Of a DNA stretch of 64,000 nt, positions 14,084-44,411 are shown in pieces. Source of the stretch: Pseudomonas sp. stari2 (GTDB taxonomy: Bacteria; Pseudomonadota; Gammaproteobacteria; Pseudomonadales; Pseudomonadaceae); assembly GCF_040760005.1 (NCBI RefSeq), contig NZ_CP099760.1, positions 4,211,501 through 4,275,500 of the forward strand, written 5' to 3'. A program made the position numbers and the translations under genes. How positions within the stretch are numbered: position 1 is the first letter of the stretch; each line of letters opens with the position of its first letter. The notes beneath the pieces are model-generated. The model was not told the DNA's origin. It did no database searches and saw only the letters and a list, made by a program, of their open reading frames with translations.

Positions 14084-14130
14084 AGAGACCTCCTGTTTAA
14101 GTTCTGGAGCAACATTGCCGAGCGATTCGA

Positions 14131-14406: not shown

Positions 14407-14413
14407 CAGTTCC

Positions 14414-15214: not shown

Positions 15215-15223
15215 GGCCGGGCC

Positions 15224-16090
15224 TCAGCGGTTAGCGTCGCTGTGGGTCATGGCGGTATAGAACAGCCAGGACACCAGCAGGATGATCAGGAAGTACACCA
15301 GCGAAAACGCCGCCGCCGGCCCCAGGTCGAATTGGCCTACAGCCATCTGGGTCAGCGTCTGACTCAGAAAGGTCGTGGCATTGCCCGGCCCGCCGCCGGT
15401 GAGCACGAACGGCTCGGTGTAGATCATGAAACTGTCCATGAAGCGCAACATCACCGCGATCAGCAGCACGCTCTTCAGTTTGGGCAACTGGATGTGGCGA
15501 AACACCGCCCAGGCCGAAGCCCGGTCGATCCGCGCCGCCTGGTAATACACATCGGGAATCGCCCGCAGCCCCGAGAAACACAGCAGCGCCACCAGCGACG
15601 TCCAGTGCCACACGTCCATCACCAGCACGGTGACCCAAGCGTCCATGGTGTTGGCCGCGTAGTTGTAGCTGATGCCCATCGCATTAAGGCTCGATCCCAT
15701 CAGGCCAATGTCGGCGCGACCGAAAATCTGCCAGATGGTGCCGACCACGTTCCATGGAATCAGCAGCGGGATCGCCAGCACAATCAGCACCACCGACGAC
15801 CAGCGACCCTTGGTCGGCATGGTCAGGGCGATGGCGATCCCGAGGGGGATTTCGATCAGAAGCACACACGCCGAGTAGATGAACTGGCGCAGCAACGAGT
15901 CGTGCAGACGCGGATCGAGCAGCACCTGCTTGTACCAGTCGGCACCGACGAAGTAGCGGCTCGACTGGTCGAAGATGTCCTGCACCGAATAATTGACCAC
16001 GGTCATCATCGGGATCACCGCACTGAAGGCCACCAGCAGAAACACCGGCAATACCAGCCACCAGGCCTTGTTGTTCTGCACCTTGTTCAT
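15224..16090 (-). CDS. ABC transporter permease, GlpP/MalF-like
   Basis: A 288-residue permease. It has an N-terminal helix (WWLVLPVFLLVAFSAVIPMMTV) characteristic of the MalF-type CUT1 subunit and an EAA loop (DVYYQAARIDRASAWAVFRHIQLP). The start ATG overlaps the stop of the second ATPase gene by 4 nt (ATGA). It forms the heterodimeric channel with the 266-residue permease. Confidence 0.9.
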   Translation of the reverse strand: MNKVQNNKAWWLVLPVFLLVAFSAVIPMMTVVNYSVQDIFDQSSRYFVGADWYKQVLLDPRLHDSLLRQFIYSACVLLIEIPLGIAIALTMPTKGRWSSVVLIVLAIPLLIPWNVVGTIWQIFGRADIGLMGSSLNAMGISYNYAANTMDAWVTVLVMDVWHWTSLVALLCFSGLRAIPDVYYQAARIDRASAWAVFRHIQLPKLKSVLLIAVMLRFMDSFMIYTEPFVLTGGGPGNATTFLSQTLTQMAVGQFDLGPAAAFSLVYFLIILLVSWLFYTAMTHSDANR

Positions 16091-29081: not shown

Positions 29082-30551
29082 TTAGTTGTGCGTGGTGGCT
29101 GGGCTGGCGTTGCTGGCGGTCAGGGTTTGCCCCTGAAAGCCGCCACCCAGCGCTTGCATCAGTTGAATCGACAGGTCGATCTGCTCGGCATTCAGGTTTG
29201 CCAGTTGACGCTGGGCCTGCAGCAATTGCTGCTCGATGCTGAGCACGTCCAGGTAGTTGCCGATTCCGGAACCGTAACGCTGGACCACGGTGTTGTAAGA
29301 ATCCTGGGCAATCTCGGTCGCGTGCTGCTGGGCGCCGATCTGCCGGCCGATGTCACGCAACTGGTTGATGGTGTCGCCGACATCACCCAGGGCTTTCACC
29401 AGGCTTTTGTTGTACTGCGCCACGGCCAGGTCGTAATCGGCATCGCGAGCATCGAGGTTGGCGCGCAGGCGTCCGCCATCGAAGATCGGCAGCGAAAGGG
29501 TCGAGGCGATGTTGAAGAAGCGACTGGCGGACCCGAACATCGCGTCACCCAATAACGATTCGGCACCAGCGGAGGCCGACAGGTTCAAGTTGGGATAGAA
29601 GCGGGTCTTGGCCGAGTCGATGTCCTTGCTCGCGGCCTCGACACGCCAGCGTGCGGCAACCAGATCCGGGCGACGGCCCAACAATTCCGCCGGCAGTACC
29701 GAGGGCACAGCGACGGCACTGGCCTGCAGGACTTTCGGCCGGGCGATTTCGTTGCCACGATCCGGGCCTTTGCCGAGCAATACGGCCAGAGCGATTTTCG
29801 CGCTGTTCAGACGTTTTTCGGCGTCGATCAGGCTGGCTTCGGAGCTGGCTTCCAGACTTTGGGTCTGCTGGAACTGGTACTGGCTGTCGATCCCCGAGCT
29901 CAAACGACGCTGACTCAGGTCGAGCATCTGCTTGGTGCGCTTGAGGTCTTCGTTGGCCAGGTCATAAACGATATGCGCCTGCCCCAGATCGCTGTAGGCC
30001 CGGGCCACGTCGGCGGCGAGGGTCAACTGTGCGGCCTGACGGTCGACTTCAGCAGCGCGGGCCTGACCCAGTGCAGCTTCCCAGGCGTCACGCTGACCGC
30101 CCCAAAGGTCGAAGTTGTAATTGAAGCCGGCGCTGATATTGCGCGTAGTGGCGTAGGCATCGCCCTGCCCTCGCGGGTCCTGATCCTTGGCCAGACGCGA
30201 ACGGGTAATGCCGGCGCTGGCGTCAAGGGTCGGATAACGCTCGGCATCGGCGGCATAGGCGGCGGCGCTGGCCTGATGGGCGCGGGCGTCGGCGATCTGC
30301 ATGTCCGGGCTGTCATGCAGGGCTTCGCGAATCAGACCGTCGAGCTGCGGATCGCCGAGACTCGTCCACCAGTCGCTCTTCGGCCACGCGGCCGGCGACA
30401 GTGTCACGCCATTGAGGGATTGGCCGACCTTGAGGTCTTTCGCATCAAGGTTTTTGCCATGGGTATCGAGGCCGCTGTAGTTGGCGCAACCGGCGAGGAT
30501 CATCGCCGACAGCACCAGTGTCAGGCTGCTGCGCAAGGATTTACCGCTCAT
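29082..30551 (-). CDS. Outer-membrane efflux lipoprotein (NodT/OprM family)
   Basis: A 489-residue RND/MFS-type outer-membrane factor with a lipoprotein signal (LVLSAMILAGC, lipidated Cys). Duplicated TolC-type helices are visible (SAKIALAVLLGKGPDRGN; ADYDLAVAQYNKSLVKALGDV). ATG 30551 is preferred over the GTG at 30560 because TTAGGTGA is 5-7 nt upstream; it overlaps the end of marR by 11 nt, so expression is coupled to the repressor gene. Confidence 0.9.
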   Translation of the reverse strand: MSGKSLRSSLTLVLSAMILAGCANYSGLDTHGKNLDAKDLKVGQSLNGVTLSPAAWPKSDWWTSLGDPQLDGLIREALHDSPDMQIADARAHQASAAAYAADAERYPTLDASAGITRSRLAKDQDPRGQGDAYATTRNISAGFNYNFDLWGGQRDAWEAALGQARAAEVDRQAAQLTLAADVARAYSDLGQAHIVYDLANEDLKRTKQMLDLSQRRLSSGIDSQYQFQQTQSLEASSEASLIDAEKRLNSAKIALAVLLGKGPDRGNEIARPKVLQASAVAVPSVLPAELLGRRPDLVAARWRVEAASKDIDSAKTRFYPNLNLSASAGAESLLGDAMFGSASRFFNIASTLSLPIFDGGRLRANLDARDADYDLAVAQYNKSLVKALGDVGDTINQLRDIGRQIGAQQHATEIAQDSYNTVVQRYGSGIGNYLDVLSIEQQLLQAQRQLANLNAEQIDLSIQLMQALGGGFQGQTLTASNASPATTHN

Positions 30552-31023
30552 TGTGTTCACCTAACCGCTGGATGGTGATCGGGTCACCAGCCGCCAGCAA
30601 AATTTTCTTGAGGATGTATTCCAGGGTTTTCAACTCATCCGGAGTAATCGCGCCGGCCAGCTCATTCATGGCGTCGGCACCGATGTGCGGCAGACGATCG
30701 GCCAGCGCCTGACCTTGCCCGGTGAGCTTCAACTGCACCTGACGACGATCGCCTTCGCTGCGCTGGCGGATCAGGAAATCTTTCTGCTCCAGACGGTCGA
30801 GCATGCGGGTCATCGAACCGCTGTCCAGCGACAGGTGCCGACACAGCTCGGCCGGGGTGTCGACGCCGTACTGGGCCATGATGATCAACACCTTGAACTG
30901 CGCGGCAGTGATGCCGTGGGGTTCCATGTGGGTGTCGATGATCCTGTCCTTGAGCAAGGCTGCACGGCCGAGCAACAGGCCGAGGTGACAATGCTTGAAT
31001 TCATCCGGGGTGAAATGCTTCAT
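30541..31023 (-). CDS. MarR-family repressor of the efflux operon
   Basis: A 160-residue winged-helix repressor. DNA-recognition region: TPAELCRHLSLDSGSMTRMLDRLEQKDFLIRQRSEGDRR, with the wing arginines of the DRR motif. It is the first gene of marR-OMF-emrA-emrB, and two near-identical palindromes lie directly upstream, so it likely autorepresses the whole operon until a phenolic or drug ligand releases it. Confidence 0.92.
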   Translation of the reverse strand: MKHFTPDEFKHCHLGLLLGRAALLKDRIIDTHMEPHGITAAQFKVLIIMAQYGVDTPAELCRHLSLDSGSMTRMLDRLEQKDFLIRQRSEGDRRQVQLKLTGQGQALADRLPHIGADAMNELAGAITPDELKTLEYILKKILLAAGDPITIQRLGEHNER

Positions 31024-31037
31024 GTACGCACCTAATA

Positions 31038-31090
31038 ACTGCCTAGGCAGTGAATGTATGTCGAGATGTTACTGCCTAGGCAGCGAATGT
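31038..31090. promoter_or_regulatory. Two MarR operator palindromes
   Basis: ACTGCCTAGGCAGTGAATGT (31038-31057) and ACTGCCTAGGCAGCGAATGT (31071-31090) are direct repeats whose 12-14 bp cores (ACTGCCTAGGCAGT) are perfect or near-perfect palindromes; the centres are 33 bp apart (about three turns). The first ends 14 nt before the marR ATG. Confidence 0.85.
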
Positions 31091-31295: not shown

Positions 31296-31313
31296 TTCTA
31301 GGAATCGCCTGAT
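31296..31313 (+). promoter_or_regulatory. RcsB-like box upstream of the adhesin gene
   Basis: TTCTAGGAATCGCCTGAT, identical at 17 of 18 positions to 40350-40367 before the pilin gene. The 14-bp core TAGGAATCGCCTGA keeps the outer T/A, G and C positions of the enterobacterial RcsB box. It lies 63 bp before the adhesin start. Confidence 0.6.
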
Positions 31314-31376
31314 GTCCATCGGCAGGCACCGCGCTTAAGTTACGGCGCTCTTTGGCCGACACGCAAAGCCCTCTTC

Positions 31377-32354
31377 ATGAAGCATTTAAAACTTCAGAGC
31401 TTCCTGTTCCCCCTGGTCTCAACAATGATGCTGGCATGCGCCTCGCAAGCCATGGCCGGCAGCTGCACAGTCGTCGATTCGACCACCGAAACCCTTAACT
31501 TCGGCGCCAGCCTGGTCAACACCAGTCTGACGATTCCTGCTGACACGCCTAATGGAACGGTGGTCTATCAAGACACCCTGCAAGGGTCCGCCCACATCTG
31601 GGAGTGCGCGCAGGCATCGCAATATGGCGTACTGCTGGATTCCAGACTGGGCAACGTCTCCGGCAAAGTAACGACGTTCCCCTTAGGCAAATCCGGACTG
31701 TCGTACCGCATCTGGATAGGGGCATTGGATCGATACGAGTCGTCGTTGAGCACCATCAATGCGACCCCCGCTGGTGCGAATTATGGCTTCAACGCCGGCA
31801 GTATCCGCCTGGAGATCGTCAAGAGCGGCGAGCTGGCTTCGCAGGTCAAGGTCGATGCAGGCGCCCTGGGCGCCCTGCAAGACGATGATCTTGTCCTGAT
31901 AAGATTCAATCTGAGCAACCCCATCGTACTGAATGCCGCCTCGTGCCAGACCCCGTCCGTACCGGTGGCCATGGGTGATGACTATCAACTCCATGAGTTT
32001 CGCGAGGCTGGCGCCACCCCTCGCAAGGTGCGGTTCAACATTGGCTTGAATCAGTGCCGGACCGGCATCAAGAAAGTCACTTACTCGCTCAAGGCCAACA
32101 CCCCGGTCATCGACGCCACAAAAGGCATCATCACGCTCAACGACAGCTCCACCGCGAAAGGCATCGGTCTGCAGTTGCTCAATGATGCCGGGCAACCGAT
32201 CGCACTGGACACGACTTACCCGTTCGATGCATTCACGGCCACTGGCACCGACTTCAAGATTCCCTTGTCGGCATCGTATTACCGTCTGACGACAGAGGAA
32301 CTCAAGGCCGGCAGCGCCAACACCGAAGTCACCTTCATCGTGAACTACCTGTAA
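31377..32354 (+). CDS. Two-domain fimbrial tip adhesin
   Basis: A 325-residue exported protein: signal peptide ending ...ACASQAMA, a lectin-like N-terminal domain (about 25-185) with a disulfide candidate (C30 and the Cys of WECAQ), then a pilin domain (about 195-325) with a second Cys pair (ASCQTP, NQCRTG) and the C-terminal strand EVTFIVNYL with the penultimate Tyr that chaperones recognise. This is FimH-like architecture. It is unusual that the adhesin is separated from pilin, chaperone and usher by four regulatory genes, but a shared upstream box links them. The SD is weak. The 286 bp before it hold no other credible gene. Confidence 0.82.
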   Translation: MKHLKLQSFLFPLVSTMMLACASQAMAGSCTVVDSTTETLNFGASLVNTSLTIPADTPNGTVVYQDTLQGSAHIWECAQASQYGVLLDSRLGNVSGKVTTFPLGKSGLSYRIWIGALDRYESSLSTINATPAGANYGFNAGSIRLEIVKSGELASQVKVDAGALGALQDDDLVLIRFNLSNPIVLNAASCQTPSVPVAMGDDYQLHEFREAGATPRKVRFNIGLNQCRTGIKKVTYSLKANTPVIDATKGIITLNDSSTAKGIGLQLLNDAGQPIALDTTYPFDAFTATGTDFKIPLSASYYRLTTEELKAGSANTEVTFIVNYL

Positions 32355-32360
32355 CCAATA

Positions 32361-32374
32361 TAAGGATCGTCTGA
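32361..32374 (+). promoter_or_regulatory. RcsB-like box upstream of the first hybrid kinase
   Basis: TAAGGATCGTCTGA, differing at 2 of 14 positions from the pilin-gene box, 36 bp before the kinase start. It suggests feedback of the regulator on its own signalling operon. Confidence 0.45.
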
Positions 32375-32409
32375 TTTTCCCGGTATCCGACCGTCCCTAC
32401 AGTGCCGGG

Positions 32410-35223
32410 ATGAGATTAAAGAACTACCTCCATCAGATCAGCCCCGTCCTGTCCACGCCCCATGCCGCGCGCCGCCTGCTGCGCATTTTTGCCTTCGTAC
32501 TGCTGGTGGGCATACTCGGCGGCGCATACAGCTTCCTGCTGTTTACCTTCAACAATGAAATCTCCCAGCGGCGCAGCTACATGAGCAGCGCCATCGCCGA
32601 GGCGCACACTTTTTTCACCACTCGCGAAGCACTGCTCAGAAGCCTGAGCCTGTCGGCGACGCGCAAAGTCGAAATAGAGGCTCCGGTCTCCGATGAAGAA
32701 ATACGCCTGCTGCTGGGGCAAGCACCGGGCCCGCAATGGAGTATCTGGCTGACCCGGCGCATGCGCGATTACCTCACGGCCCGACAATTGAACCTGATCT
32801 ACGTCAGCAGCGATTCCCGGGCCCAAGTGTTACGCCTGCACAATGCAACGCCGATGGTCGGTGATGTTTCTCAGGCCATGCTGGATCAACTGCAAGCCCT
32901 CAAATATCAAAACACCGGTGCCCTGCAAGAACTCTGGCTGACCCATGCCGTTGACGGGCATTCGCAGTTGTACATTTTCATTCGGCTGGACGAACGCGAC
33001 ATCGACTCCGGCTGGCTCGGCCTGGAAATGGACGACCGCGAAGTCTCCAGTGCCTTGAGTGACCACAGTGCAGGCGAGTTCACTATGTTCAATGCCCAGG
33101 GCATGCCACTCTTCAGCAATAGCCTGAAACCGCCGCCCGGACAGGATCTGCCGCTTCTGCGGCAGCAGGACTTTTTCGGTTTTGTCGGAAACGGCTGGTG
33201 GCCCGAGCAACTGGTGCTGCGCAAGCAACTGAAGTCATCGGACTGGCAGCTCACCTACTCCATCGATTTGCTGGCGGTGCTGTCGGCATTGTGGCCACAA
33301 ATGCTGGGGGCGCTGCTGTTCTGCCTGCTGAGTAGCGGCCTGGTGTGCGGGTTGACCCGACGTCTGGAATACCGCTTCATCAACCCGGCGATTCATCGGA
33401 TCCAGGCACTGGTGGAGAGCGAGTTGTTCAGTCGCGACGTGATCCAGACCGCCCCGGTGGCGCTCTGCGTACTGCGACGCACCGATGGCCAGGTGGTGCT
33501 GGAAAACACTCTCGCCCGCCAATGGCTGGGCGAGTGCCGCGCGCAACTGGGCGCCGGCTGGATCCGCGAGGCTTTCGATGCTACCGAGCCGCTCCTGACG
33601 GATGACTTCGAGACCACAGACGGCCGCCACCTTTACCTGAGTTGTGCGCCCACCCGCTACAAAGGCGAGGACGTGTTGCTGTGTGCGTTCAGCGACATCA
33701 GTGCGCGACGACAAATCGAAGCGGCACTGGAGCAAGCCCGCCAATCGGCAGACGCCGCCAATGAAGCCAAGACCTTGTTCCTAGCGACCATGAGCCACGA
33801 AATCCGCACACCGCTTTACGGCGTGCTCGGCACGCTGGAATTGCTTGCCCGAACGCAACTGGATAGCCGACAGAAAAGTTACCTGCAAGCCATCGAGGGC
33901 TCGTCCGCCACGCTGCTGCAACTGATCTGCGACGTGCTGGATGTGTCGAAGATCGAGGCCGGACAATTGGCCCTGGAGTTGAGCGAGTTCTGCCCCACGA
34001 CACTGGCGCAAGAGGTCGTGCAAGGTTACGCGGCAGCGGCGCAGAGCAAAGGCTTGCAACTGTATGCCTGCCTCGACCCGCAACTGCCGGATTGTTTGAG
34101 GGGGGATGCCAGCCGCGTGCGCCAGATCCTCAACAATCTGCTGAACAACGCGGTCAAGTTCACCGACTCCGGCCGTGTGGTGCTAAGGGTCAAACTGCTT
34201 CGTCGCGAAGGCGAGCGCGTGTGCCTGCAATGGCAAGTCTCGGACACCGGAAAAGGCATCGCTCATGACGATCAGGCCTTCATTTTCGAACCGTTTTACC
34301 AGACCGAGGGCAACACCAACGTGGTGGCCGGCACCGGCCTGGGCCTGCCCATTTGCCAACGGTTGACGCACTTGATGAATGGCACCCTGCGCATGGTCAG
34401 CGAGCCTGGACTGGGCAGCAGTTTTTCCCTGAGCGTGCCGCTGGAGCAGCGACCCTGCAATGCACCACCTGCAGCCTTGCCGGCCTTGGCGCCGGATACC
34501 GTTTATGTGGTCTCGCCCATCCGCGAACTGGCCGATAGCATCAGCGGCTGGCTGCGCCGCTGGGGTGCCCGACCGCAGATCGGCGCACCTGACGCCCTGG
34601 AACCTGACACGACGGCTGTGTTGCTGGAACTCTATCCCACGCCCTGCGAACAACGTTCCAGACCGGCATGGCAAGGGCCGCGAGTACTGGCCAGCGGCGA
34701 CGCTGCCCACGAGCCTCCGTTCAACGGTGATGGCTGGAAGGTCAACCTGAACGATCTGGCCGCGATCCAGCGCGCGGTTCGCCTGGCCCAGGGCGGCCCG
34801 GTTGCGCAGCGCACGGAACCACGCGAACCCTACGCTGTGCGGCCATTGCGCCTGCATATTCTGGTGGCAGAAGACAACGTCATCAACCAGCTGATCCTGC
34901 GCGATCAGCTAGAGGAACTGGGCTGCACAGTGACGTTATCCGGCGATGGCGAGGAAGCGTTGTCGCTCTGGCGCGAGCGCGCGTTCGACATCGTTCTGAC
35001 CGACGTCAACATGCCCCGACTCAATGGCTACGAGCTGGCCAAGACCCTGCGACGTCAGGACTGCACCCTCCCGATCATCGGCGCCACCGCCAACGCAATG
35101 CGTGGTGAAGACGCCCTGTGCCTGGCCGCCGGCATGAATCACTGCCTGGTCAAACCATTTACGCTACGAGCCTTGTTCACTGTCCTGGCTCCCTACGCAC
35201 GAGTTGCTCATGAAGCCCTGTAG
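32410..35223 (+). CDS. Hybrid sensor histidine kinase (PvrS/RocS-like)
   Basis: A 937-residue membrane kinase. TM1 lies at about residues 26-46 and TM2 at 290-312, flanking a periplasmic domain of about 240 residues; then a PAS-like segment (345-435), HisKA with H463 (ATMSHEIRTPLYGVLG), HATPase (TGLGLPICQRL), a degenerate linker receiver (about 690-800), and a receiver with D865 (LTDVNMPRLNGYEL). It has no Hpt domain, in contrast to the second kinase at 36484. It should feed phosphate to the shared RcsB-like or PvrR-like regulators. The layout matches pvrS of the P. aeruginosa PA14 cupD region. Confidence 0.88.
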   Translation: MRLKNYLHQISPVLSTPHAARRLLRIFAFVLLVGILGGAYSFLLFTFNNEISQRRSYMSSAIAEAHTFFTTREALLRSLSLSATRKVEIEAPVSDEEIRLLLGQAPGPQWSIWLTRRMRDYLTARQLNLIYVSSDSRAQVLRLHNATPMVGDVSQAMLDQLQALKYQNTGALQELWLTHAVDGHSQLYIFIRLDERDIDSGWLGLEMDDREVSSALSDHSAGEFTMFNAQGMPLFSNSLKPPPGQDLPLLRQQDFFGFVGNGWWPEQLVLRKQLKSSDWQLTYSIDLLAVLSALWPQMLGALLFCLLSSGLVCGLTRRLEYRFINPAIHRIQALVESELFSRDVIQTAPVALCVLRRTDGQVVLENTLARQWLGECRAQLGAGWIREAFDATEPLLTDDFETTDGRHLYLSCAPTRYKGEDVLLCAFSDISARRQIEAALEQARQSADAANEAKTLFLATMSHEIRTPLYGVLGTLELLARTQLDSRQKSYLQAIEGSSATLLQLICDVLDVSKIEAGQLALELSEFCPTTLAQEVVQGYAAAAQSKGLQLYACLDPQLPDCLRGDASRVRQILNNLLNNAVKFTDSGRVVLRVKLLRREGERVCLQWQVSDTGKGIAHDDQAFIFEPFYQTEGNTNVVAGTGLGLPICQRLTHLMNGTLRMVSEPGLGSSFSLSVPLEQRPCNAPPAALPALAPDTVYVVSPIRELADSISGWLRRWGARPQIGAPDALEPDTTAVLLELYPTPCEQRSRPAWQGPRVLASGDAAHEPPFNGDGWKVNLNDLAAIQRAVRLAQGGPVAQRTEPREPYAVRPLRLHILVAEDNVINQLILRDQLEELGCTVTLSGDGEEALSLWRERAFDIVLTDVNMPRLNGYELAKTLRRQDCTLPIIGATANAMRGEDALCLAAGMNHCLVKPFTLRALFTVLAPYARVAHEAL

Positions 35224-36397
35224 CATTTTGATTGTCGAAGACCACCCCTTCCAGCACTTGTACCTGCAGAATCTGTTCAACGAACTGGGCGAGTTCGATG
35301 TCGTGTGCGCCAGGGACGGCGAAGCCGCGCTGGCCTGCCTGAAAAAACGCGACTTCGACCTGGTACTCACCGACCTGCTGATGCCAGGTATGGACGGCGT
35401 GCAGTTCATTCAGGGACTCGCTGCACAACGTTCGCGTCCCGCGCTGGCCATCATGAGTGCGGCCTCACGCCGTATGTTGATGGGTGCCAGCCTGGTGGCG
35501 AGCAACCTGCAAGTGAAGGTGATCGGGCTGATTTCCAAGCCGGTGAGCACGGCCGCACTGCGCTGTCTGATCGATCAATTGCAGGCACTGCGCCAGACGG
35601 CGCCGACCGAGAATCGCGAAGGCATCGACCGTCAGAGTATTCTGCAGGCGCTGGACAACGGCGAACTGCAAGCCTGGTTCCAGCCCAAGAAAGCCCTGAA
35701 CAATGGCCGGATCGTGGCCGCCGAAGCGCTGGTGCGCTGGATTCATCCCGAGCACGGCACATTGCTGCCCGGCGCATTTCTGCCGACGCTGATCGCCTGC
35801 GACCTCGAAGAACAGTTGCTGTGGCGGGTGCTGCAACAAGCGATTGCCGCCCAAATCGTCTGGCGCCAGCAGGGCTATGACATACCGGTTTCGATCAACC
35901 TGCCCACGCACTTGCTCAACAGCCACGACCTCCCCGACCGCATCCTTGCGTTCGTGCTGGCCCATCAAGGATTACCGGCACGTATCTGCTTCGAGTTGAT
36001 GGAATGCTCGGTGCCCGATGACATCAGCAACTTCTACGCCGGTGCCTGCCGTTTGCGGATCAAAGGGTTCGAGCTGTCCCAGGACGATTTCGGCAAGGGC
36101 TACAGCTCCTACATGAACCTGGTGTCGGCCCCCTTCACCGAATTGAAGATCGACCGCGCGCTGGTGCAAGGCTGCAATGCCAACGAGGAACTGGCCCAGG
36201 CCCTGACCAGCATTGTCAGCCTGGGGAGGCAGTTGGGACTGACCGTGGTGGCGGAAGGTGTGGAAACCGCGCAAGAGCTTGCTCTGTTGCGTAAAATCGA
36301 CTGCACTCAGGTTCAGGGTTTCCTGATCTCTCACGCCGTGTCTTCGGATCAGTTCCAGCAATTGCTGACCCATGACGGGCCGGCAAACGTTTATTGA
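35210..36397 (+). CDS. CheY-EAL response regulator, c-di-GMP phosphodiesterase (PvrR/RocR-like)
   Basis: A 395-residue regulator. The receiver (1-125) has D55 (LVLTDLLMPGMDG). The EAL domain (about 145-390) keeps catalytic elements: EALVRW, INLP, FELME, DDFGKGYSS, LKIDRALV and VVAEGVET, so it is expected to be an active phosphodiesterase lowering c-di-GMP. PvrR and RocR have this architecture; RocR also competes for phosphate with the transcriptional regulator. ATG 35210 overlaps the kinase gene by 14 nt, giving translational coupling; a TTG two codons upstream is less likely. Confidence 0.9.
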   Translation: MKPCSILIVEDHPFQHLYLQNLFNELGEFDVVCARDGEAALACLKKRDFDLVLTDLLMPGMDGVQFIQGLAAQRSRPALAIMSAASRRMLMGASLVASNLQVKVIGLISKPVSTAALRCLIDQLQALRQTAPTENREGIDRQSILQALDNGELQAWFQPKKALNNGRIVAAEALVRWIHPEHGTLLPGAFLPTLIACDLEEQLLWRVLQQAIAAQIVWRQQGYDIPVSINLPTHLLNSHDLPDRILAFVLAHQGLPARICFELMECSVPDDISNFYAGACRLRIKGFELSQDDFGKGYSSYMNLVSAPFTELKIDRALVQGCNANEELAQALTSIVSLGRQLGLTVVAEGVETAQELALLRKIDCTQVQGFLISHAVSSDQFQQLLTHDGPANVY

Positions 36398-36483
36398 CCC
36401 GCAGGCCGGTGTTGACGAACGTCACTTGCTATCGAGGTCACCGTGTCCAAAGACTTTCCCATCACTGCAATCCAGGCACGCTG

Positions 36484-39400
36484 ATGCCGCATCCCGACGC
36501 CGTCCTGGAAAAACTCGCCAGCAGTTCATCGCGCCTGAACAAGGGCCTGCTGGTGCTGACCGCCCTCGTATTGCTGTTGCTCGGCATCAGCTACGTGGGG
36601 GTCATGCGCATGATCGAAGAGCGGCGCGATACCTTGCAGTTTCATTTTGCCGCGCTGATGGAGAATGTCCGCGAACAGGAAGTGTTCCTGCGCGATATCG
36701 TCCGTGAAAGCACCAAGGGCGAGCGGCTGCCCACAAGCACGCTGCCGCCTCCCGTACAAAAGGCCATGCCCGAAGAAGGGCCGAACACTTATGAAGGCCG
36801 CGGCCTGCCGTTTTCGCTCCCCTACAGCCTGAAGATCAATCCGGACAAAATCGCCCCCGATCAATACCCCGCAATCTTCGCGCTCGGCACCCACCTGGCC
36901 GCTTACTACAGCGCGTTCTGGTCGGCGTCACACTATCAATCGCCCCAGATCGTCCTGGTCAATGGTCCCGACAACTTTGATGTGGTCGTGCCCGCCGCCG
37001 GACGTCTGCGCGGGGCGAGCCCGATGCAGATCGATGAATTGGTTCGGGCGACGACTCAGGTGAACAAACGCATGCGCGCGCACAACTCGCCGCCACGCGA
37101 CCTTCAGGTGCATTGGGAACCCTATTCATCCGCCCGCGACAACAAGACCGCCCCCACCCTGATGGCCTACGTGAGCATCAACCTGGCGGGGAACACGCGG
37201 ACTATCGAGGGCGCCGATACCTGGGTGATAGTGGCCTCGCTGCTAAACCTGTCTCAGGTCAATAACATCGAACGGCTGATGAAGTGGGCAATCTACGACA
37301 ACTTCACCTTGATCACGCCCGGCGGTGTAATCCTGACGGGCGCCCTGAAACCCGGCCAGACGCTGCATGAGGGGGTGAACTTCAATCGCGACGGTCTGGT
37401 GTTCAAACTGACCAGCCCCGGAGAGGCGCACTGGACGGCGATCTACGTCATCAGTGTGCAGAGTTTTCTTGATTACGCACTCTGGCCATTGCTGTGCCTG
37501 ATCGCAATGGTCCTGGCGATCCTCGGCTGCAGTCGTGCCATCAATCGCTGGTACCGGACCCGAGTCATCCTGCCTGCACAGCTTGCACACGCCAGCATCG
37601 CCGAAAGCGAGGCGTTCAGCCGCACGGTGATCGATACGGCGCCGACCGGCCTGTGCGTGATCCGGCGTAGCGACCACCACGTGCTGCTGGAAAACCAGCG
37701 CGCCCAGCAATGGCACGACAACAGCCAGTTGATGAGTTTGCTCACATCGTGCAACGAGTCCGGCCACGCCGACATCGAAATCGACGGGCGCCATCTGCAT
37801 GTTGCCTTCGTGCCCACCCGCTACCAGGGTCAGGACGCCTGGCTGTGTGCCTTGCATGACGTGACCCGGCATGTCGAGGACGCGCTGGCACTGGAAGAGG
37901 CGCGCCAGGCCGCCGACTCGGCGAATCAGGCCAAGAGCCGGTTCCTCGCCACCATGAGTCATGAGATCCGTACCCCCCTGTACGGCGTGCTGGGCACTCT
38001 GGAATTGCTTGACCTGACACCGCTCACCCCGCGCCAGCAGGATTACTTGCACACCATCCAGCGCTCCTCCGCCACATTGTTCCAGCTGATCAGCGATGTA
38101 CTGGATGTATCGAAAATCGAAGCCGGGCAGATGACCCTGGAGCTTCAGGATTTCTGTCCCCTGGAACTGACCGAAGACACCGTGCGCGCCTACAGCGCCT
38201 TCGCCCGGTCCAAGGGTCTGCAACTCTATGCCTGCATCGACGCGACGTTGCCGGACCGGGTGCGCGGTGACCCGCTGCGGATTCGCCAGATTCTCAACAA
38301 CCTGCTGAGCAACGCGATCAAGTTCACCGACAACGGCCGCGTTGTACTCAGGGCACGGGTGCTGGACAGCCCCGACGGTCGCGTCAACGTGCAGTGGCAG
38401 GTCAGCGATTCGGGGATGGGGATTTCCCAGGCGCAGCAACAGCAGTTGTTCGCCCCTTTCTATCAGGTCAACAACGCTACCGAACAGGCCGGTGCGGGTC
38501 TCGGTCTGGCGATTTGCAAATGGCTGTGCGAATTGATGGAGGGGCAGTTGAACGTGGTCAGCGAACCCGGACTGGGCAGCAGCTTCACCCTGCAGCTCGG
38601 ACTGGAACGCGTACCCGGCGAGTTGCCCGACTGCCCCGTCTTCAGCCCTGGTACTCCCGCCGTTTATGTGCGCGCGCAAGTCACCGAGCTGGCACAACAT
38701 CTGATTGGCTGGCTCAGCCGGTTTGGCCTCGAGTGCCGCCTGGTAACGGACGAAACGTCAGCGCCATCGGCGCTGTTGGTGGAGTTTTCCTCCCTCCCCC
38801 ACACCCCGCCCTGGCCCGGTCCCAGAATCATTGCCACACCGGACGGGCCCAACCCCTCGCAGCGACGCGGTACCGACCGAGAGGTCAACGCCGACGATGT
38901 CCGTGCGATCGCCTGGGCCATCTACATGGCCCGACACGGCGCCAGTACCGACAATCATCCCGTGCCGTCGCAAATGACCCGGCGCTTGAACCTGCAGGTG
39001 CTGGTGGCGGAAGACAACGTGATCAACTCGGCCATCATCAAGGAGCAACTGGAGGTGCTGGGCTGCACGGTGACTGTCGCGGCCAATGGCGAACAGGCCC
39101 TGGCACAGTGGTCTCCCGGACGCTTCGACCTGGTGCTGACCGACGTCAACATGCCAATCATGAACGGTTACCAACTGGCGGCCGCGTTGCGCCAGCAGGA
39201 CCCGGCATTGCCGATCATCGGTGTCACCGCCAACGCCCTGCGCGAAGAAGGCGAACGCTGCGCCGCCGTCGGCATGAATGCCTGGATGGTCAAGCCGCTC
39301 AACCTCGCGACCCTGCGCGAGCACCTTGGAAAACACTGCAAAATCGACCTGCCCGCGGCCATCGTCGCGCCGATACAGCTTTCACCGAAAATGCGCGAAC

Positions 39401-39651
39401 TGTTTGTCACGACCCTGCGCCAGGACGTATCCGCCACGCTGGCGGCACTGGATAACGCCGACGCCACGCGTGTAGCCCAGCAACTGCACAGTATGGCGGG
39501 CGCCCTGGGTGCGGCGCAGGTCGAAGCCATGGCCACGACATTTGTCGATCTGGAATGCCGTTTGAACGGCATGGACGTGACCACCGCCCTGGACCTGGAA
39601 GTCCGCCAGAATCTGGCTCGACTGAAAGACTTACTGGATACCCTTGAATAA
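36484..39651 (+). CDS. Hybrid sensor histidine kinase with receiver and Hpt domains (RcsC-like)
   Basis: A 1055-residue membrane kinase. TM1 is at about 19-39 and TM2 at 325-345, with a periplasmic domain of about 280 residues carrying an Arg/Lys-rich surface. A PAS-like segment is followed by HisKA with H493 (ATMSHEIRTPLYGVLG), HATPase, a degenerate receiver-like linker, a receiver with D887 and a C-terminal Hpt domain with H1002 (LHSMAGALGA). It is thus a complete His-Asp-His phosphorelay. Its kinase core is closely similar to that of the first kinase, suggesting duplication. The frame is open to TTG 36394, overlapping the EAL gene, but ATG 36484 opens the usual cytoplasmic lead. Confidence 0.88.
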   Translation: MPHPDAVLEKLASSSSRLNKGLLVLTALVLLLLGISYVGVMRMIEERRDTLQFHFAALMENVREQEVFLRDIVRESTKGERLPTSTLPPPVQKAMPEEGPNTYEGRGLPFSLPYSLKINPDKIAPDQYPAIFALGTHLAAYYSAFWSASHYQSPQIVLVNGPDNFDVVVPAAGRLRGASPMQIDELVRATTQVNKRMRAHNSPPRDLQVHWEPYSSARDNKTAPTLMAYVSINLAGNTRTIEGADTWVIVASLLNLSQVNNIERLMKWAIYDNFTLITPGGVILTGALKPGQTLHEGVNFNRDGLVFKLTSPGEAHWTAIYVISVQSFLDYALWPLLCLIAMVLAILGCSRAINRWYRTRVILPAQLAHASIAESEAFSRTVIDTAPTGLCVIRRSDHHVLLENQRAQQWHDNSQLMSLLTSCNESGHADIEIDGRHLHVAFVPTRYQGQDAWLCALHDVTRHVEDALALEEARQAADSANQAKSRFLATMSHEIRTPLYGVLGTLELLDLTPLTPRQQDYLHTIQRSSATLFQLISDVLDVSKIEAGQMTLELQDFCPLELTEDTVRAYSAFARSKGLQLYACIDATLPDRVRGDPLRIRQILNNLLSNAIKFTDNGRVVLRARVLDSPDGRVNVQWQVSDSGMGISQAQQQQLFAPFYQVNNATEQAGAGLGLAICKWLCELMEGQLNVVSEPGLGSSFTLQLGLERVPGELPDCPVFSPGTPAVYVRAQVTELAQHLIGWLSRFGLECRLVTDETSAPSALLVEFSSLPHTPPWPGPRIIATPDGPNPSQRRGTDREVNADDVRAIAWAIYMARHGASTDNHPVPSQMTRRLNLQVLVAEDNVINSAIIKEQLEVLGCTVTVAANGEQALAQWSPGRFDLVLTDVNMPIMNGYQLAAALRQQDPALPIIGVTANALREEGERCAAVGMNAWMVKPLNLATLREHLGKHCKIDLPAAIVAPIQLSPKMRELFVTTLRQDVSATLAALDNADATRVAQQLHSMAGALGAAQVEAMATTFVDLECRLNGMDVTTALDLEVRQNLARLKDLLDTLE

Positions 39652-39672
39652 TTTCACTCTGGAAAATCACCC

Positions 39673-40320
39673 ATGGAAACCTTCAACGTTGTGATTGCCG
39701 ATGACCATCCCATCGTACTGGTGGGGGTACGTGAGCTGGTGGAGCGTGACAGACGCTTTCGCGTGGTGGGCGAAGCCGTTTGCTCCAGCGAGCTGATCCA
39801 TCTGCTCGACACCCGGCAGGTGGATCTGGTCATCACCGACTTCAACATGCCCGGCGACTCAACCTATGGGGATGGTCTGAAACTGGTGGAATACCTGACG
39901 CGCCACCACCCTACCGTCCGGGTACTGGTGCTGACCATGATTTCCAACCGCCTGATCCTGACGCGCCTGCACGAACTCGGGGTGCTGGGCATCATCCAGA
40001 AAAACCAGCTGCATAACGAAATCGAAACGGCGCTCAAGGCCATTGCGCGGGGCAACCCGGTGCGTGGCTATGAACCTGCGCCAACCTCAGTGGTGGTCGA
40101 CGGCGCAGACCTGGACGAACGTTTTACCCGGCTGTCGCCCAAAGAGCACGAAATACTGCGCCTGTTTGTTTCGGGACTGGGCGTCAGTGATATAGCACGA
40201 GGATTGAACAGAAGTGCGAAAACCATCAGCACTCAGAAGATATCGGCCATGCGCAAACTTGAGGTCAACAGCGATCAGGACTTGCTGGCTTATTGCATAG
40301 AACGCAATCTGTTCAACTAA
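39673..40320 (+). CDS. RcsB/RocA-like response regulator (NarL/LuxR helix-turn-helix)
   Basis: A 215-residue regulator strikingly like enterobacterial RcsB. The receiver keeps VIADDHPIVLVGVRE, phospho-acceptor D56 (the same number as RcsB D56) in VITDFNMPGD, YGDGLKLVEYLTRHHP and VLVLTM. The output domain has RLSPKEHEILRLFVSG and IARGLNRSAKTISTQKISAM. It starts 21 nt after the Hpt kinase gene, so they form one operon. It is the likely activator of the pilin and adhesin promoters through the repeated 14-bp box. Confidence 0.92.
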   Translation: METFNVVIADDHPIVLVGVRELVERDRRFRVVGEAVCSSELIHLLDTRQVDLVITDFNMPGDSTYGDGLKLVEYLTRHHPTVRVLVLTMISNRLILTRLHELGVLGIIQKNQLHNEIETALKAIARGNPVRGYEPAPTSVVVDGADLDERFTRLSPKEHEILRLFVSGLGVSDIARGLNRSAKTISTQKISAMRKLEVNSDQDLLAYCIERNLFN

Positions 40321-40349
40321 CAGGTAACTTCACAAAGCAATAAAACAAC

Positions 40350-40367
40350 TTCTAGGAATCGTCTGAT
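40350..40367 (+). promoter_or_regulatory. RcsB-like box upstream of the pilin gene
   Basis: TTCTAGGAATCGTCTGAT, 60 bp before the pilin ATG. A -10-like TATATC lies about 20 bp downstream (40388-40393), so a bound regulator would sit at about -35 or -45, the position of an activator. Confidence 0.6.
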
Positions 40368-40426
40368 ACTCCATCAGAAGTGCACTGTATATCGTGTTGT
40401 TTCAACCCGCCAACATGGTAAACAAC

Positions 40427-41014
40427 ATGAAAAATCTGTCTCACGCACTTCTCGCCCTTTCAATCATGGCCGCTGCCGGTCACGCTCTCGCAGCAGACCC
40501 GACACCGACCAAGGCTGGCAGTGGCACCATCAACTTCACCGGCACCATCAACAACGATGCCTGCTCTGTCGATGGCGCCGGAACGAACAAAACCATTTCC
40601 GTCAACATGGGCGAAGTGTCGATCAAGGACATGGGTACCGCCACCGCACCTAAAGGCAACGGTACGCTGAGCGTCGAAAACTTCGACATGAAGATCAACT
40701 GCAACGCCGGCACCAAGGTCGCCATGATCTTCGAACCGACCAAGGGCGCAGGCTCGGGCATCGTTCCTGGCACCAAAGTGCTGAAGTTGATCGACGGTCT
40801 GGGCGCCGCCAAGAACATCGGTATTGCCCTGCTCGATGCTAACGGTGCGTTGATCGACCTGAGCTCGCCGTCCACGGCGAAGATCGAAAACACTCTGCAA
40901 GACAGCAACACCACGCTGAAATTCTCGGCGGCCTACGTCACCACCGCTGATGTAGCGACAGCCGTTGCCGGTCGTGGCGACGCCACCCTGCCGTTCACGC
41001 TGCAATACGAATAA
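40427..41014 (+). CDS. Major fimbrial subunit (type 1 pilin family)
   Basis: A 195-residue pilin: signal peptide SHALLALSIMAAAGHALA, then ADPTPTKAGSGTINFTGTINNDACSV with the first Cys; second Cys in MKINCNAGTK; C-terminal strand TLPFTLQYE with the penultimate Tyr. In-frame ATG codons occur upstream (40415), but 40427 opens the signal peptide; no strong SD is seen at either. It is the first gene of pilin-chaperone-usher and is followed by a hairpin before the chaperone gene, which usually serves to keep pilin mRNA abundant. Confidence 0.88.
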   Translation: MKNLSHALLALSIMAAAGHALAADPTPTKAGSGTINFTGTINNDACSVDGAGTNKTISVNMGEVSIKDMGTATAPKGNGTLSVENFDMKINCNAGTKVAMIFEPTKGAGSGIVPGTKVLKLIDGLGAAKNIGIALLDANGALIDLSSPSTAKIENTLQDSNTTLKFSAAYVTTADVATAVAGRGDATLPFTLQYE

Positions 41015-41086: not shown

Positions 41087-41836
41087 ATGTTCTATCGTCA
41101 CACACTGTCCATTTGCGCAGGCCTGCTGGGCCTGCTCATGGCCGACCAGGCCATGGCCGGCATTTCATTGAGCAGCACCCGTCTGGTCTTCGACGGTCAG
41201 CACAAGGAAGCCGGGATCACCGTGCGCAACAGCGGTGAAGATGTATTGATCCAGTCCTGGATCGACACCGATACCAGCGAAACCGCCGCTGTACCGTTTG
41301 CCGTCACCCCGCCACTGGTGCGCGTCAGCGGCAACGAACAGCAAATACTGCGGGTGATCTACGAAGGCACGGGCATGCCGACCGACCGGGAGTCGGTGGT
41401 ATGGCTCAATGTCCAGGAGATCCCGCAGGCGGCGAAATCCCCCAACACGTTGCAACTGGCCGTGCGTCAACGCATCAAGGTGTTCTTCCGCCCGGCGGAA
41501 CTGAAAAACAACGCCTATCTGGCACCGAGCGAACTGACCTGGCGCCTGGCCGAACGCGCCGGCAAAAGCCTTCTGGTGGTGAACAACCCTGGCCAGTATC
41601 ACGTCTCGATTGCCGAGATAACGCTGCAATCCGGCGCTCTCAGCGAACGGCCCTTTGATTCGATGATGATTGCGCCAGGTGAACAAAAAGAGTTCAGCCT
41701 TAAACAACTGCATCACACAAGTACAGCCCGCCTGTTATTCAACAGCATTAATGACTATGGCGCACAAGATCGTTATGGCGCGCAACTCAACAACAGCGCC
41801 GAGACCCGAGCCAGTTTGAATAAAGAGTCCCCATAA
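41087..41836 (+). CDS. Periplasmic fimbrial chaperone (PapD family)
   Basis: A 249-residue chaperone: signal peptide SICAGLLGLLMADQAMA, then GISLSSTRLVFDGQHKEAGITVRN (the conserved G1 entry strand), QQILRVIYEGTGMPTDRESVVWLNVQEIP (the family signature) and IKVFFRPAEL. The conserved Arg and Lys that hold the pilin C-terminus (R in STRLVF, K in RQRIKVFF) are present. It donates a strand to pilin and adhesin and delivers them to the usher. Confidence 0.93.
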   Translation: MFYRHTLSICAGLLGLLMADQAMAGISLSSTRLVFDGQHKEAGITVRNSGEDVLIQSWIDTDTSETAAVPFAVTPPLVRVSGNEQQILRVIYEGTGMPTDRESVVWLNVQEIPQAAKSPNTLQLAVRQRIKVFFRPAELKNNAYLAPSELTWRLAERAGKSLLVVNNPGQYHVSIAEITLQSGALSERPFDSMMIAPGEQKEFSLKQLHHTSTARLLFNSINDYGAQDRYGAQLNNSAETRASLNKESP

Positions 41837-41921
41837 CTTTCGTGCCGCTGTCACAGCCGCACTGTCACTGTATTTCTCTTCGCTCCGTTAGTTCGTATCG
41901 GAGGTGATATAGGGTTCCTGC

Positions 41922-44411
41922 ATGTTTTTAATCAAGCGCGACGGATGGGCGCCGTTTTCGATGGCCCTGGTTTTCAGCAGCACCTGCCTGGCAGATGGCG
42001 ATGAACAGTTCAATACATCGTTTCTGCAAGGCGCTCCGTCCTCTGTGGACCTGCAATCACTGCTCGCCTCCAGTAGCGTGCTGCCCGGTATTTATAGGGT
42101 GGACCTCTACGGCAACGAAACCCTGGTCGGCCGTCGCGATATCGACTTCCGCCGCCACCCTGGCACGGGCAAGGTCGAGGCCTGCCTGACCCTGGAGATG
42201 GTGCAGCAGTTGGGGGTCGACCTCGGCAAACTGCAAGCTACCGGCAAACTGATCGGCGATGACCCGGATGCCTGTCTGGACCTGCCCGCCTTGATCGATC
42301 ACGCCAACGTGCGTTACGACGTGCCACGCCTGCGCCTGATGGTCAGCGTGCCGCAAAGCGCCATGGAACGCGGTCGACGCGGTTACGTCGACCCGGCCTT
42401 GTGGGACGAGGGCGTGCCCGCAGCGTTTATCAACTATCAATTGAGCAGCAGTCGCAACAGCACCCAGGCTGAAAACACCCTGTCCAACAACATCGGCTTG
42501 CGCAACGGTATCAACCTGGGTGCCTGGCGGTTGCGTAACGAATCGAACTTCAACAGCAGCACCGGCCGTCCCAATACTTTCAAAAGCAATCGCAGCTACC
42601 TGCAACATGACGTGACCGCCCTGAAGGGGCAGTTCAGTGCCGGGGACATTTTCTCGGATGCCGACCTGTTCGACAGCGTGCGCTATCGCGGCTTGAAACT
42701 GGCGTCCGACGACGGCATGCGCGCCGACAGCGAGCGCGGTTATGCGCCCATCATTCGAGGCATTGCGCAGTCCAGTGCCACTGTGGAGATTCGCCAGAAC
42801 AACTACATGCTCTACACCGCCAATGTGCCACCGGGCCCGTTCGAAATCAGCGATATCTACCCCAGCGGTTCGAACGGCGATCTCGAAGTGACGATTATCG
42901 AAGCCGATGGTCGGCGCCGGGTATCGCTGCAAGCGTTTTCCAGCCTGCCGATCATGGTGCGCCAAGGGCAGTTGAAATACAGCGTCTCGGCCGGTCAGTT
43001 CAACAGCAACAGCGATGATCAGAAGTCGCCGCAATTTGTCAGCAGCACGCTGGCCTATGGCGTCAGCAGCAATCTGTCGACGATTGTCGGGGTCCAGGCG
43101 TCGGACAACTTCCAGGCGTTGTCCGTGGGCGCCGGTCGTAACACGTCGATCGGTGCGGTCTCGCTGGACGTGACCCACTCCAGCAGCCGCACCTTCGGTC
43201 AGGCCGTCACGGGCAACAGCCTGCGTGCCTTGTATGCCAAGACGTTTACCGGTACCGACACCAATTTCACGCTGGCCGCCTACCGCTACTCGACCGAGGG
43301 CTATCGCACCCTCACCGAGCACGTCGAAGCGCTGAGCAGCGACGGTCAGCCACGCACCGGTAACTCGAAAACCCGCACCGACCTCACCGTCAACCAGAGC
43401 CTGGGACGCAACCAGCAATATGGCAGCGTCTACGTGAACGCCAGCGACCAGCGCTACTGGGGGCGCGGTGGTTCGCAAAGCCTGTCGGCGGGTTACAGCA
43501 ACTATTGGGGTGATGTGAGTTACAACATCGGGGCCACGTACTCCAAGGATGTCGGCAACTATGGGCCGTCGAACAATGACACCTTGCTGAACCTGTCCGT
43601 GTCATTCCCGCTGGGTTCCAAACCCCGTGCACCGCGGGCCTTTGTATCTGCCAGCACGCAGAAAGCCGACGACAGCACCCAGGTCGGCATCAATGGCTAC
43701 CTGTCGGAAAACAGCGACACCTACTACTCGGTGCAAGGCGGCAACAGCAGCACCGGTGGCGGCAGCGGTTCGGTGAACCTCAGCACCCGTACCTCGGTGA
43801 TGGACATCAGTGCCGGCTACAGCCAGGGACGCGGATACAACTCGCAGAGCCTTAACCTGGCAGGTTCGGTCGTGGGCCATGCCGGCGGGATCAACCTGGG
43901 ACAAACTGTGGGCGAAACGTTCGCACTGGCACAGGTCGAAGGTGCGGCGGGGGTCAAGATCGCCAGCTACTCCGGGGCCAAGACCGCCAGCAACGGTTTT
44001 GCCGTGGTCCCAAACGCACAGCCTTACCGGGTGAACTGGATCAACCTGGACACCCGTGACCTGGGCGGCGATATCGAGATCGAGAATGCGACCCGGCAAG
44101 TCGTCCCCCGACGCGGAGCGGTGGTTCTGGCACGCTACGCCAGCAAGACCGGGCGGCGTGTGCAATTTGCGTTGTTCGACAGCCAGCATCGGCCAATTCC
44201 GTTTGGCGCGTCGCTCGAGGACGGCAACGGCAAGCAGTTAGCGATCTCTGACCCTGGTGGCAAGGCACTGGCGCTGGTCGAAACAGATGCCGGCACGCTC
44301 ATCATCAACTGGCAGGGCCAGCGTTGTGAGGCGCCTTATGCGTTGCCGGAACGCAATAAGGCGCTGAACTATGAGCGTGTCTCGCTGGTGTGCAGTACGC
44401 CGGCCCTCTAG
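41922..44411 (+). CDS. Outer-membrane fimbrial usher (FimD/PapC family)
   Basis: An 829-residue usher: signal peptide about 1-24, N-terminal subunit-binding domain with EQFNTSFLQG, 24-strand barrel with central plug (YASKTGRRVQFALFD belongs to the C-terminal part), and a C-terminal domain with Cys residues (QRCEAPYALP ... LVCSTPAL). A long SD-like GGAGGTGAT (41900-41908) is unusually far from the ATG, with a closer AGGG at 41911. Its TAG stop overlaps the TAG of the convergent tamB gene through a shared CTAG. Confidence 0.93.
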   Translation: MFLIKRDGWAPFSMALVFSSTCLADGDEQFNTSFLQGAPSSVDLQSLLASSSVLPGIYRVDLYGNETLVGRRDIDFRRHPGTGKVEACLTLEMVQQLGVDLGKLQATGKLIGDDPDACLDLPALIDHANVRYDVPRLRLMVSVPQSAMERGRRGYVDPALWDEGVPAAFINYQLSSSRNSTQAENTLSNNIGLRNGINLGAWRLRNESNFNSSTGRPNTFKSNRSYLQHDVTALKGQFSAGDIFSDADLFDSVRYRGLKLASDDGMRADSERGYAPIIRGIAQSSATVEIRQNNYMLYTANVPPGPFEISDIYPSGSNGDLEVTIIEADGRRRVSLQAFSSLPIMVRQGQLKYSVSAGQFNSNSDDQKSPQFVSSTLAYGVSSNLSTIVGVQASDNFQALSVGAGRNTSIGAVSLDVTHSSSRTFGQAVTGNSLRALYAKTFTGTDTNFTLAAYRYSTEGYRTLTEHVEALSSDGQPRTGNSKTRTDLTVNQSLGRNQQYGSVYVNASDQRYWGRGGSQSLSAGYSNYWGDVSYNIGATYSKDVGNYGPSNNDTLLNLSVSFPLGSKPRAPRAFVSASTQKADDSTQVGINGYLSENSDTYYSVQGGNSSTGGGSGSVNLSTRTSVMDISAGYSQGRGYNSQSLNLAGSVVGHAGGINLGQTVGETFALAQVEGAAGVKIASYSGAKTASNGFAVVPNAQPYRVNWINLDTRDLGGDIEIENATRQVVPRRGAVVLARYASKTGRRVQFALFDSQHRPIPFGASLEDGNGKQLAISDPGGKALALVETDAGTLIINWQGQRCEAPYALPERNKALNYERVSLVCSTPAL

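Follow-up and report, generated by a model that had tools for sequence, protein, structure and literature searches.

How can a putative tip adhesin be kept in step with a pilus whose remaining genes lie 9 kb away? This question is raised by a locus within a 64,000-nucleotide stretch of Pseudomonas sp. stari2 DNA (G000:C1:4211501-4275500, part of a 6.31 Mb single-contig genome), hereafter called the window. From left to right the locus codes for an adhesin (gene starting at 31377), a hybrid kinase (32410), a regulator with receiver and EAL domains, a second kinase that matches Hpt weakly, an RcsB-type regulator (39673), a pilin, a chaperone and an usher. Short boxes precede the adhesin, first kinase and pilin genes. 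We consider it highly probable that these three boxes are operators of the regulator encoded at 39673, which would drive the adhesin gene, the kinase operon and the pilin operon, with the kinase mRNA being leaderless. The boxes, their conservation, their geometry and their association with rcsB can be read from the sequence itself; from these we infer binding and activation. A first-pass annotation of the same DNA had proposed that the boxes tie the remote adhesin to the pilin-chaperone-usher operon, and this proposal is supported by box conservation, by box placement, by the link to rcsB and by genetics in strain PA14.

Three boxes at a split fimbrial locus

The 18-mer TTCTAGGAATCGYCTGAT has exact matches at 31296-31313 and 40350-40367 on the forward strand. 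Within them lie two predicted RcsB-type boxes, box 1 (31299-31312) 5' of the adhesin gene and box 3 (40353-40366) 5' of the pilin operon. A 14-mer variant, TAAGGATCGTCTGA, is located at 32361-32374 on the same strand, 5' of the first kinase gene; this is box 2, predicted to serve the kinase operon. All three sites had been picked out in the first-pass annotation, as had the 63 nt between box 1 and the adhesin ATG at 31377. For box 3 the annotated position stands and the annotated distance of 60 bp does not, the likely pilin ATG (40427) being 59 nt away; the listed open reading frame (ORF) opens with GTG at 40394.

With up to three mismatches allowed, TTCTAGGAATCGYCTGAT has no further copy in the 64 kb. 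Shuffled sequences contained 0.02 copies on average, and two copies occurred in none of 100 shuffles. The 14-mer taken alone is weak evidence, as it is found at 18 places in the window with up to three mismatches vs 16.9 expected, and at 51 places in the whole genome with up to two mismatches vs 25 for a reversed control pattern. It was dropped as a search pattern because of this low specificity. The one-mismatch 14-mer sites outside the locus (L003, L004 and L005) lie inside ORFs or at an ORF start and were not counted as part of a regulon; one of the many two-mismatch sites (L006) was examined. The genome scan for more boxes that had been suggested earlier was done with a broader 18-mer, TTHTARGRATCGYCTKAT: with at most one mismatch it occurs at three places in the genome, all at this locus, and the control pattern at none.

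The pilin and kinase boxes match the enteric RcsAB consensus at 9 of 14 positions, as had been stated for the common core, and the adhesin box departs from that statement with 8 of 14. At the five most conserved enteric positions (T1, A3, G4, T10 and C11) the kinase box agrees at 5/5, the pilin box at 4/5 and the adhesin box at 3/5.

Conservation of the boxes in related loci

Relatives were compared in two sets, 20 fetched stretches and 80 further loci. We trained a matrix on 32 sites from 12 loci of the first set and chose a cut-off of 10 bits after viewing the scores of randomised sequences; four of 36 boxes (L062 2241, L064 3728, L066 18228 and L067 4144) were excluded from training. In the second set 61 of the 80 loci were mapped, and 44 of these, all Pseudomonas (856,356 bp), served as held-out loci. 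Four loci that duplicate training genomes (L109, L130, L138 and L139), two further Pseudomonas loci (L154 and L162) and the other genera are excluded from this set; the fetched loci L168 to L186 are outside the analysis.

In relatives the box is a near-palindrome, most commonly in the palindromic form TAAGA-N4-TCTTA. Among close relatives it stands 5' of the adhesin, kinase and pilin units alike, with a degenerate adhesin box in L058, and in several loci with rearranged gene order it is found 5' of the pilin or kinase gene, partly as variants read by eye. At 10 bits or more the held-out loci contain 98 matches vs 7, 6, 5 and 3 in four Markov-randomised sets. We could assign 79 of them to the kinase (37), the pilin (25), the adhesin (9) and, in other clades, a chaperone gene that opens the adhesin unit (8); the kinase promoter thus has a match in 37 of the 44 loci. 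Some unassigned matches, as in L144 and L147, sit between rcsB and a fimbrial operon; these could belong to pilin promoters whose pilin has no close match. Counted by gene start (for homologues with 45% identity or more, with the training loci counted in), a box lies 5' of 30/30 close pilin orthologues and 10/10 close adhesin orthologues, and of none of 185 operon-internal genes (chaperone as second gene 0/27, usher 0/17, pvrR 0/59, rcsC 0/17, rcsB 0/65). The first-pass annotation had named loss of the box in relatives that keep the locus as an outcome that would count against it; by these held-out and gene-start counts the boxes are kept.

The same comparison bears on the idea that the repeat is a recent duplication of upstream DNA without any regulatory role. 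The pilin and adhesin copies do have 17 of 18 bases in common, yet the DNA flanking the 18-mer differs between them, and boxes are kept 5' of the same units in held-out loci and 5' of the pilin or kinase gene in several rearranged ones. We find such a duplication hardly credible.

A separate observation concerns L119, L122, L124 and L151 (from P. protegens, P. chlororaphis and P. piscis), in which the boxed regulatory genes are kept and the fetched stretch has no match to the pilin, chaperone or usher.

Association of the box with rcsB

The candidate owner of the boxes is the protein encoded at 39673-40320 (+). It combines a receiver domain (PF00072) with a LuxR-type helix-turn-helix (HTH) domain (PF00196) and is about 44% identical to enteric RcsB. 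Its D56 is invariant across 13 aligned homologues, in line with the RcsB-like receiver and HTH ascribed to it earlier. The closest solved structure is RcsB (E = 2e-43), and the first other family is NarL (1.6e-15). Its HTH domain shares 35 of 56 residues with Escherichia coli RcsB, including 14 of 18 around the recognition helix, and its nearest named matches come from Pseudomonas.

We surveyed 298 Pseudomonas genomes for rcsB (E-value threshold 1e-60) and for the 18-mer with at most one mismatch. rcsB was found in 76 genomes, the 18-mer in 84 and the reversed control pattern in 7. The 18-mer is present in 55 of the 76 rcsB-positive genomes vs 29 of the 222 rcsB-negative ones (Fisher p = 1.2e-21), and in 47 of the 48 genomes whose rcsB reaches 66% identity. 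Counting only matches located no more than 20 kb from rcsB leaves 49 of the 76 rcsB-positive genomes and 44 of those 48.

Several observations weigh against assigning the boxes to RcsB. The adhesin box fits the enteric consensus less well than the other two (8/14 positions; 3/5 conserved ones), and 19 of the 98 held-out matches are unassigned. The strict 18-mer is missing from 21 of the 76 rcsB-positive genomes, 20 of them outside the set with at least 66% identity; some loci without it have variant boxes, read by eye. Six of the 55 positives match only away from rcsB (G061, G067, G223, G288, G305 and G337). Of the 29 rcsB-negative genomes with a match, at least 13 share one recurrent 18-mer, which in L093 and L102 is located at the start of a gene that we take, by its appearance, to be TolC-like. 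One genome without detected rcsB, G250, has two exact sites on short contigs, which suggests that assembly may have fragmented its locus.

These cases lead to the question of whether a different NarL/FixJ-family regulator, for example of the RocA type, is the main occupant of the boxes, with the local RcsB not the main activator. In its favour, 5 of 20 genomes with a match carry one or two extra copies, at 39 to 45% identity, which we presume to be RocA-like. A genome without a detected rcsB has an exact box 5' of an apparent receiver-domain gene (L096, see below). In addition, RocA1, RocA2 and RocA3 of Pseudomonas aeruginosa are reported to resemble one another in binding motif and to overlap in their targets (PMC12051241); RocA regulators might use the same boxes. 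Against this explanation, box presence tracks rcsB across the 298 genomes, mostly at the rcsB locus itself, and in PA14 a GAA triplet was reported to be needed for RcsB-driven cupD1 expression (PMC3842833). We judge another main regulator to be improbable and retain RcsB as the preferred one.

Two further observations touch this subject. In L096 (G050:C10, near position 55947) the box lies 5' of an apparently stand-alone receiver-domain gene, in a genome without rcsB at E = 1e-40; the setting is reminiscent of the PA1468 target reported in PA14. A tandem pair of rcsB-like genes, 52 to 58% identical to that of the window, is found in L142 (10001-11323) and also in G150, G160, G176, G240, G288, G300 and G336, with an internal stop in one copy in G336.

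Promoter geometry and the start of the kinase gene

Each box of the window is followed, 23 nt further on, by a predicted -10 element of the form TANNNT on the forward strand: TAAGTT (31336-31341) after box 1, TACAGT (32398-32403) after box 2 and TATCGT (40390-40395) after box 3. In the held-out loci TANNNT stands exactly 23 nt after the box at 28 of 37 kinase promoters (with four more at 24 nt), 20 of 25 pilin, 8 of 8 chaperone and 7 of 9 adhesin promoters, while at pilins the distance from box to start codon ranges from 58 to 83. Counted from the transcription start site (TSS) that this layout suggests, the box would span about -49 to -36, in the position of the -35 element.

Leaderless promoters have a -10 element that ends about 6 to 7 nt 5' of the start codon and no Shine-Dalgarno site. 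The kinase gene of the window has this layout, with TACAGT ending 6 to 7 nt 5' of ATG 32410 and no Shine-Dalgarno site. With only 6 nt between the -10 element and the ATG, the kinase mRNA is predicted to be leaderless, with transcription starting at or next to ATG 32410 and leaderless translation to follow.

We extended the comparison to 65 Pseudomonas entries in which the kinase was matched (four are duplicated between the sets) and, for some counts, to 46 non-redundant genes. The kinase ATG lies 35 or 36 nt past the box in 58 of the 65. Of the seven exceptions, L066 and L131 fit by eye with the correct choice of box; L110, L146 and L153 are either truncated or matched to the other kinase; L136 carries an insertion; and L150 lacks a scored box. 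TANNNT ends 6 to 7 nt 5' of the ATG in 39 of the 46 non-redundant genes vs 114 of 11780 for all ATGs in the loci. The spacer between box and ATG is only 33% identical, and codon-position conservation begins at codon 2. Shine-Dalgarno pairing at the kinase starts does not exceed that at random positions (mean -2.32 kcal/mol for 46 starts vs -2.92 kcal/mol for 460 places).

It could still be that the promoters are real and that the kinase mRNA has a leader, transcription starting further upstream and the TANNNT beside the ATG being a by-product of codon usage or composition. TANNNT is a loose pattern: it is also found 6 to 7 nt 5' of the chosen start in 9 of 11 ushers, which have it at equal distance without a box, and in 2 of 7 adhesins, compared with none of the 142 starts examined for the other five genes. 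At the window usher (41890-41924), TAGGGT stands 6 nt 5' of the ATG, with GGAGGTGA farther upstream. Moreover, Shine-Dalgarno pairing is weak at pilin, chaperone and rcsC starts as well. A leader is hard to reconcile with the excess of TANNNT at kinase starts over ATGs in general, with a box-to-ATG distance that stays at 35 or 36 nt despite the poorly conserved spacer, and with the equal distance from box to -10 element at most pilin and adhesin promoters, where the pilin start itself moves. We therefore favour the leaderless start and regard a leadered kinase mRNA as unlikely.

A box-like element with the same kinase layout is present in 5/5 Stenotrophomonas loci, in a distant Pseudomonas (L162) and in an Acidovorax metagenome-assembled genome (MAG; L158), partly as read by eye; the spacer is 24 nt in L166 and the element lies 8 nt 5' of the ATG in L158. 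In the L075 and L076 kinases, which are presumably RocS1-like and whose true starts are not fixed, no examined ATG has TANNNT 5 to 8 nt upstream. L136 (about 2508-2643, P. folii) keeps the box and a -10-like element with about 86 nt inserted 5' of the kinase ATG, and looks like a natural leadered version. For comparison, a TSS study of PA14 reported 60 genes without a 5' untranslated region (PMC3460626).

Gene content of the locus

All genes of the locus are on the forward strand. By its Pfam domains the product of 32410-35223 is a PvrS-type hybrid histidine kinase with H463, the residue number of the kinase histidine in PA14 PvrS. It is followed by a PvrR-type response regulator with an EAL domain (35210-36397; start set at ATG 35210, ORF open from TTG 35204) and by an RcsC-type kinase with a receiver domain (36394-39651; the ORF opens at TTG 36394 and the true start is probably downstream). 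The Hpt match of the latter scores 20.6 bits, below the Pfam cut-off of 24.6, and the histidine motif is present at residues 1031-1040. Overlap of the hybrid kinase gene with the EAL gene, an ORF for the second kinase that begins where the EAL gene ends, and a gap of 21 nt before rcsB make the four regulator genes look like one operon. Beyond them lie the genes for the pilin (40427-41014; PF00419), a PapD-type chaperone (41087-41836; PF00345, PF02753) and an outer membrane usher (41922-44411; PF00577, PF13954, PF13953). A hybrid kinase, an EAL regulator, an Hpt-bearing kinase and rcsB are thus found together beside chaperone-usher genes, and by its predicted gene content the locus is a PvrS-PvrR-RcsC-RcsB/CupD-type system.

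There is no adhesin gene downstream of the usher, where the opposite strand carries the next long ORF (44408-48082). The genome has two other ushers, at G000:C1:4284773-4286161 (about 9 kb past the right end of the window) and 14002-15615. As the usher operon of the window lacks an adhesin gene, its partner would most naturally be the boxed remote adhesin. The adhesin gene (31377-32354) encodes a 325-residue protein that models as a two-domain tip adhesin, with a Fimbrial domain (PF00419) at residues 197-324. A first model, with a predicted local distance difference test (pLDDT) score of 51, was too poor and was discarded; a model from a deeper alignment reached 84.6. Its best fold match in the PDB is the CupB6 tip adhesin (5cyl), followed by LpfD, type 1 pilins and FimH. 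Identity to CupB6 is 16 to 19% and the whole-chain template modeling (TM) score is low (0.28 to 0.35), so the tip-adhesin assignment rests on the domains. Elsewhere in the genome, G000:C1:1507491-1507931 codes for a fimbrial-domain protein in a 324-residue open frame, distant from all three ushers.

To the left of the locus, two copies of the palindrome TNACTGCCTAGGCAG (31036-31083) lie 5' of a 160-residue gene on the reverse strand (30541-31023) which, by its appearance, we take to be MarR-like and to head a row of efflux-like genes. The pair is likely a MarR-type operator.

Relation to known systems

The closest known counterpart is the PvrSR/RcsCB-cupD system of PA14 (PMC2696094, PMC3842833). 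Both have the same four kinds of regulator genes, a predicted operon, H463 in PvrS and an RcsB box 5' of the first pilin gene. In PA14, RcsB activates cupD, the box lies near -75 of cupD1 with the GAA triplet being crucial for promoter function, and overproduced RcsB induces pvrS, pvrR, rcsC and rcsB, raising its own gene cluster (PMC3842833). The two differ in that cupD1-5 form one cluster on PAPI-1, whereas here the tip adhesin is a boxed unit of its own, 9 kb from the pilin operon (PMC2696094, PMC3842833). The accessible parts of these two papers contain no mention of a pvrS box or a leaderless start. A search with the regulator in plasmids and viral contigs did not find the PA14 cupD sequence.

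The enteric RcsAB/RcsB box TaAGaatatTCcta (PMC4325325) has a similar 14-bp near-palindromic core. Relatives carry the form TAAGAATCGTCTTA, which agrees with it at 11/14 positions, including 5/5 conserved ones; the boxes of the window differ more, with 8 to 9/14 and a central CG instead of AT. The P. aeruginosa Roc system (RocS1/A1/R, RocA2 and RocA3; PMC12051241) is alike in placing hybrid and unorthodox kinases, an EAL regulator and DNA-binding regulators over cup fimbriae; it differs in that the presumed RocA-like copies of relatives, 39 to 45% identical, occupy other loci. The adhesin model resembles CupB6 and FimH in fold.

Control of cupD by RcsB through such a box is thus already known from PA14. 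What looks new is the split layout with its three boxes, along with the leaderless start: literature searches, which largely did not cover subscription journals, found no three-box split regulon, box-to-promoter rule or leaderless kinase mRNA, and a systematic evolution of ligands by exponential enrichment (SELEX) paper in eLife names RcsB in its reference list only.

Proposed circuit and its implications

In the circuit that we propose, PvrS would lead to phosphorylation of RcsB through the Hpt domain of RcsC, a step that has genetic support in PA14. Phosphorylated RcsB would bind as a dimer to the near-palindrome, which covers roughly -49 to -36, where a -35 element would usually lie, and would activate three promoters, those of the tip adhesin gene, of the pvrS-pvrR-rcsC-rcsB operon and of the pilin-chaperone-usher operon. 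With all three promoters under predicted RcsB boxes, the split fimbrial locus would form one regulon, and a single regulator very probably turns on the adhesin, the signalling operon and the pilus operon. The box at the kinase operon (box 2) implies autoregulation, a point absent from the first-pass annotation, as are the fixed promoter geometry and the leaderless look of the kinase gene: through this box RcsB would exert positive feedback on its own operon, and the same feedback would raise the cyclic di-GMP phosphodiesterase PvrR, which may act as a brake.

More tentatively, the sensor kinase of the circuit may be made from a leaderless mRNA wherever box, -10 element and start codon keep their near-fixed distances, that is, across Pseudomonas, in Stenotrophomonas and in one Acidovorax MAG. 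As leaderless initiation differs from the usual kind, the feedback loop could then be coupled to the translation state of the cell. This is a possible extension of the circuit, and one that we consider less likely than not.

The rule of a box, 23 nt and TANNNT predicts RcsB-controlled promoters at Pseudomonas fimbrial loci, and box 2 offers a cis-acting site for the autoinduction known from PA14. The analysis also makes a specific prediction, namely that the histidine kinase mRNA is leaderless throughout the genus and beyond. Finally, the shared boxes could explain how a remote tip adhesin keeps step with its pilus.

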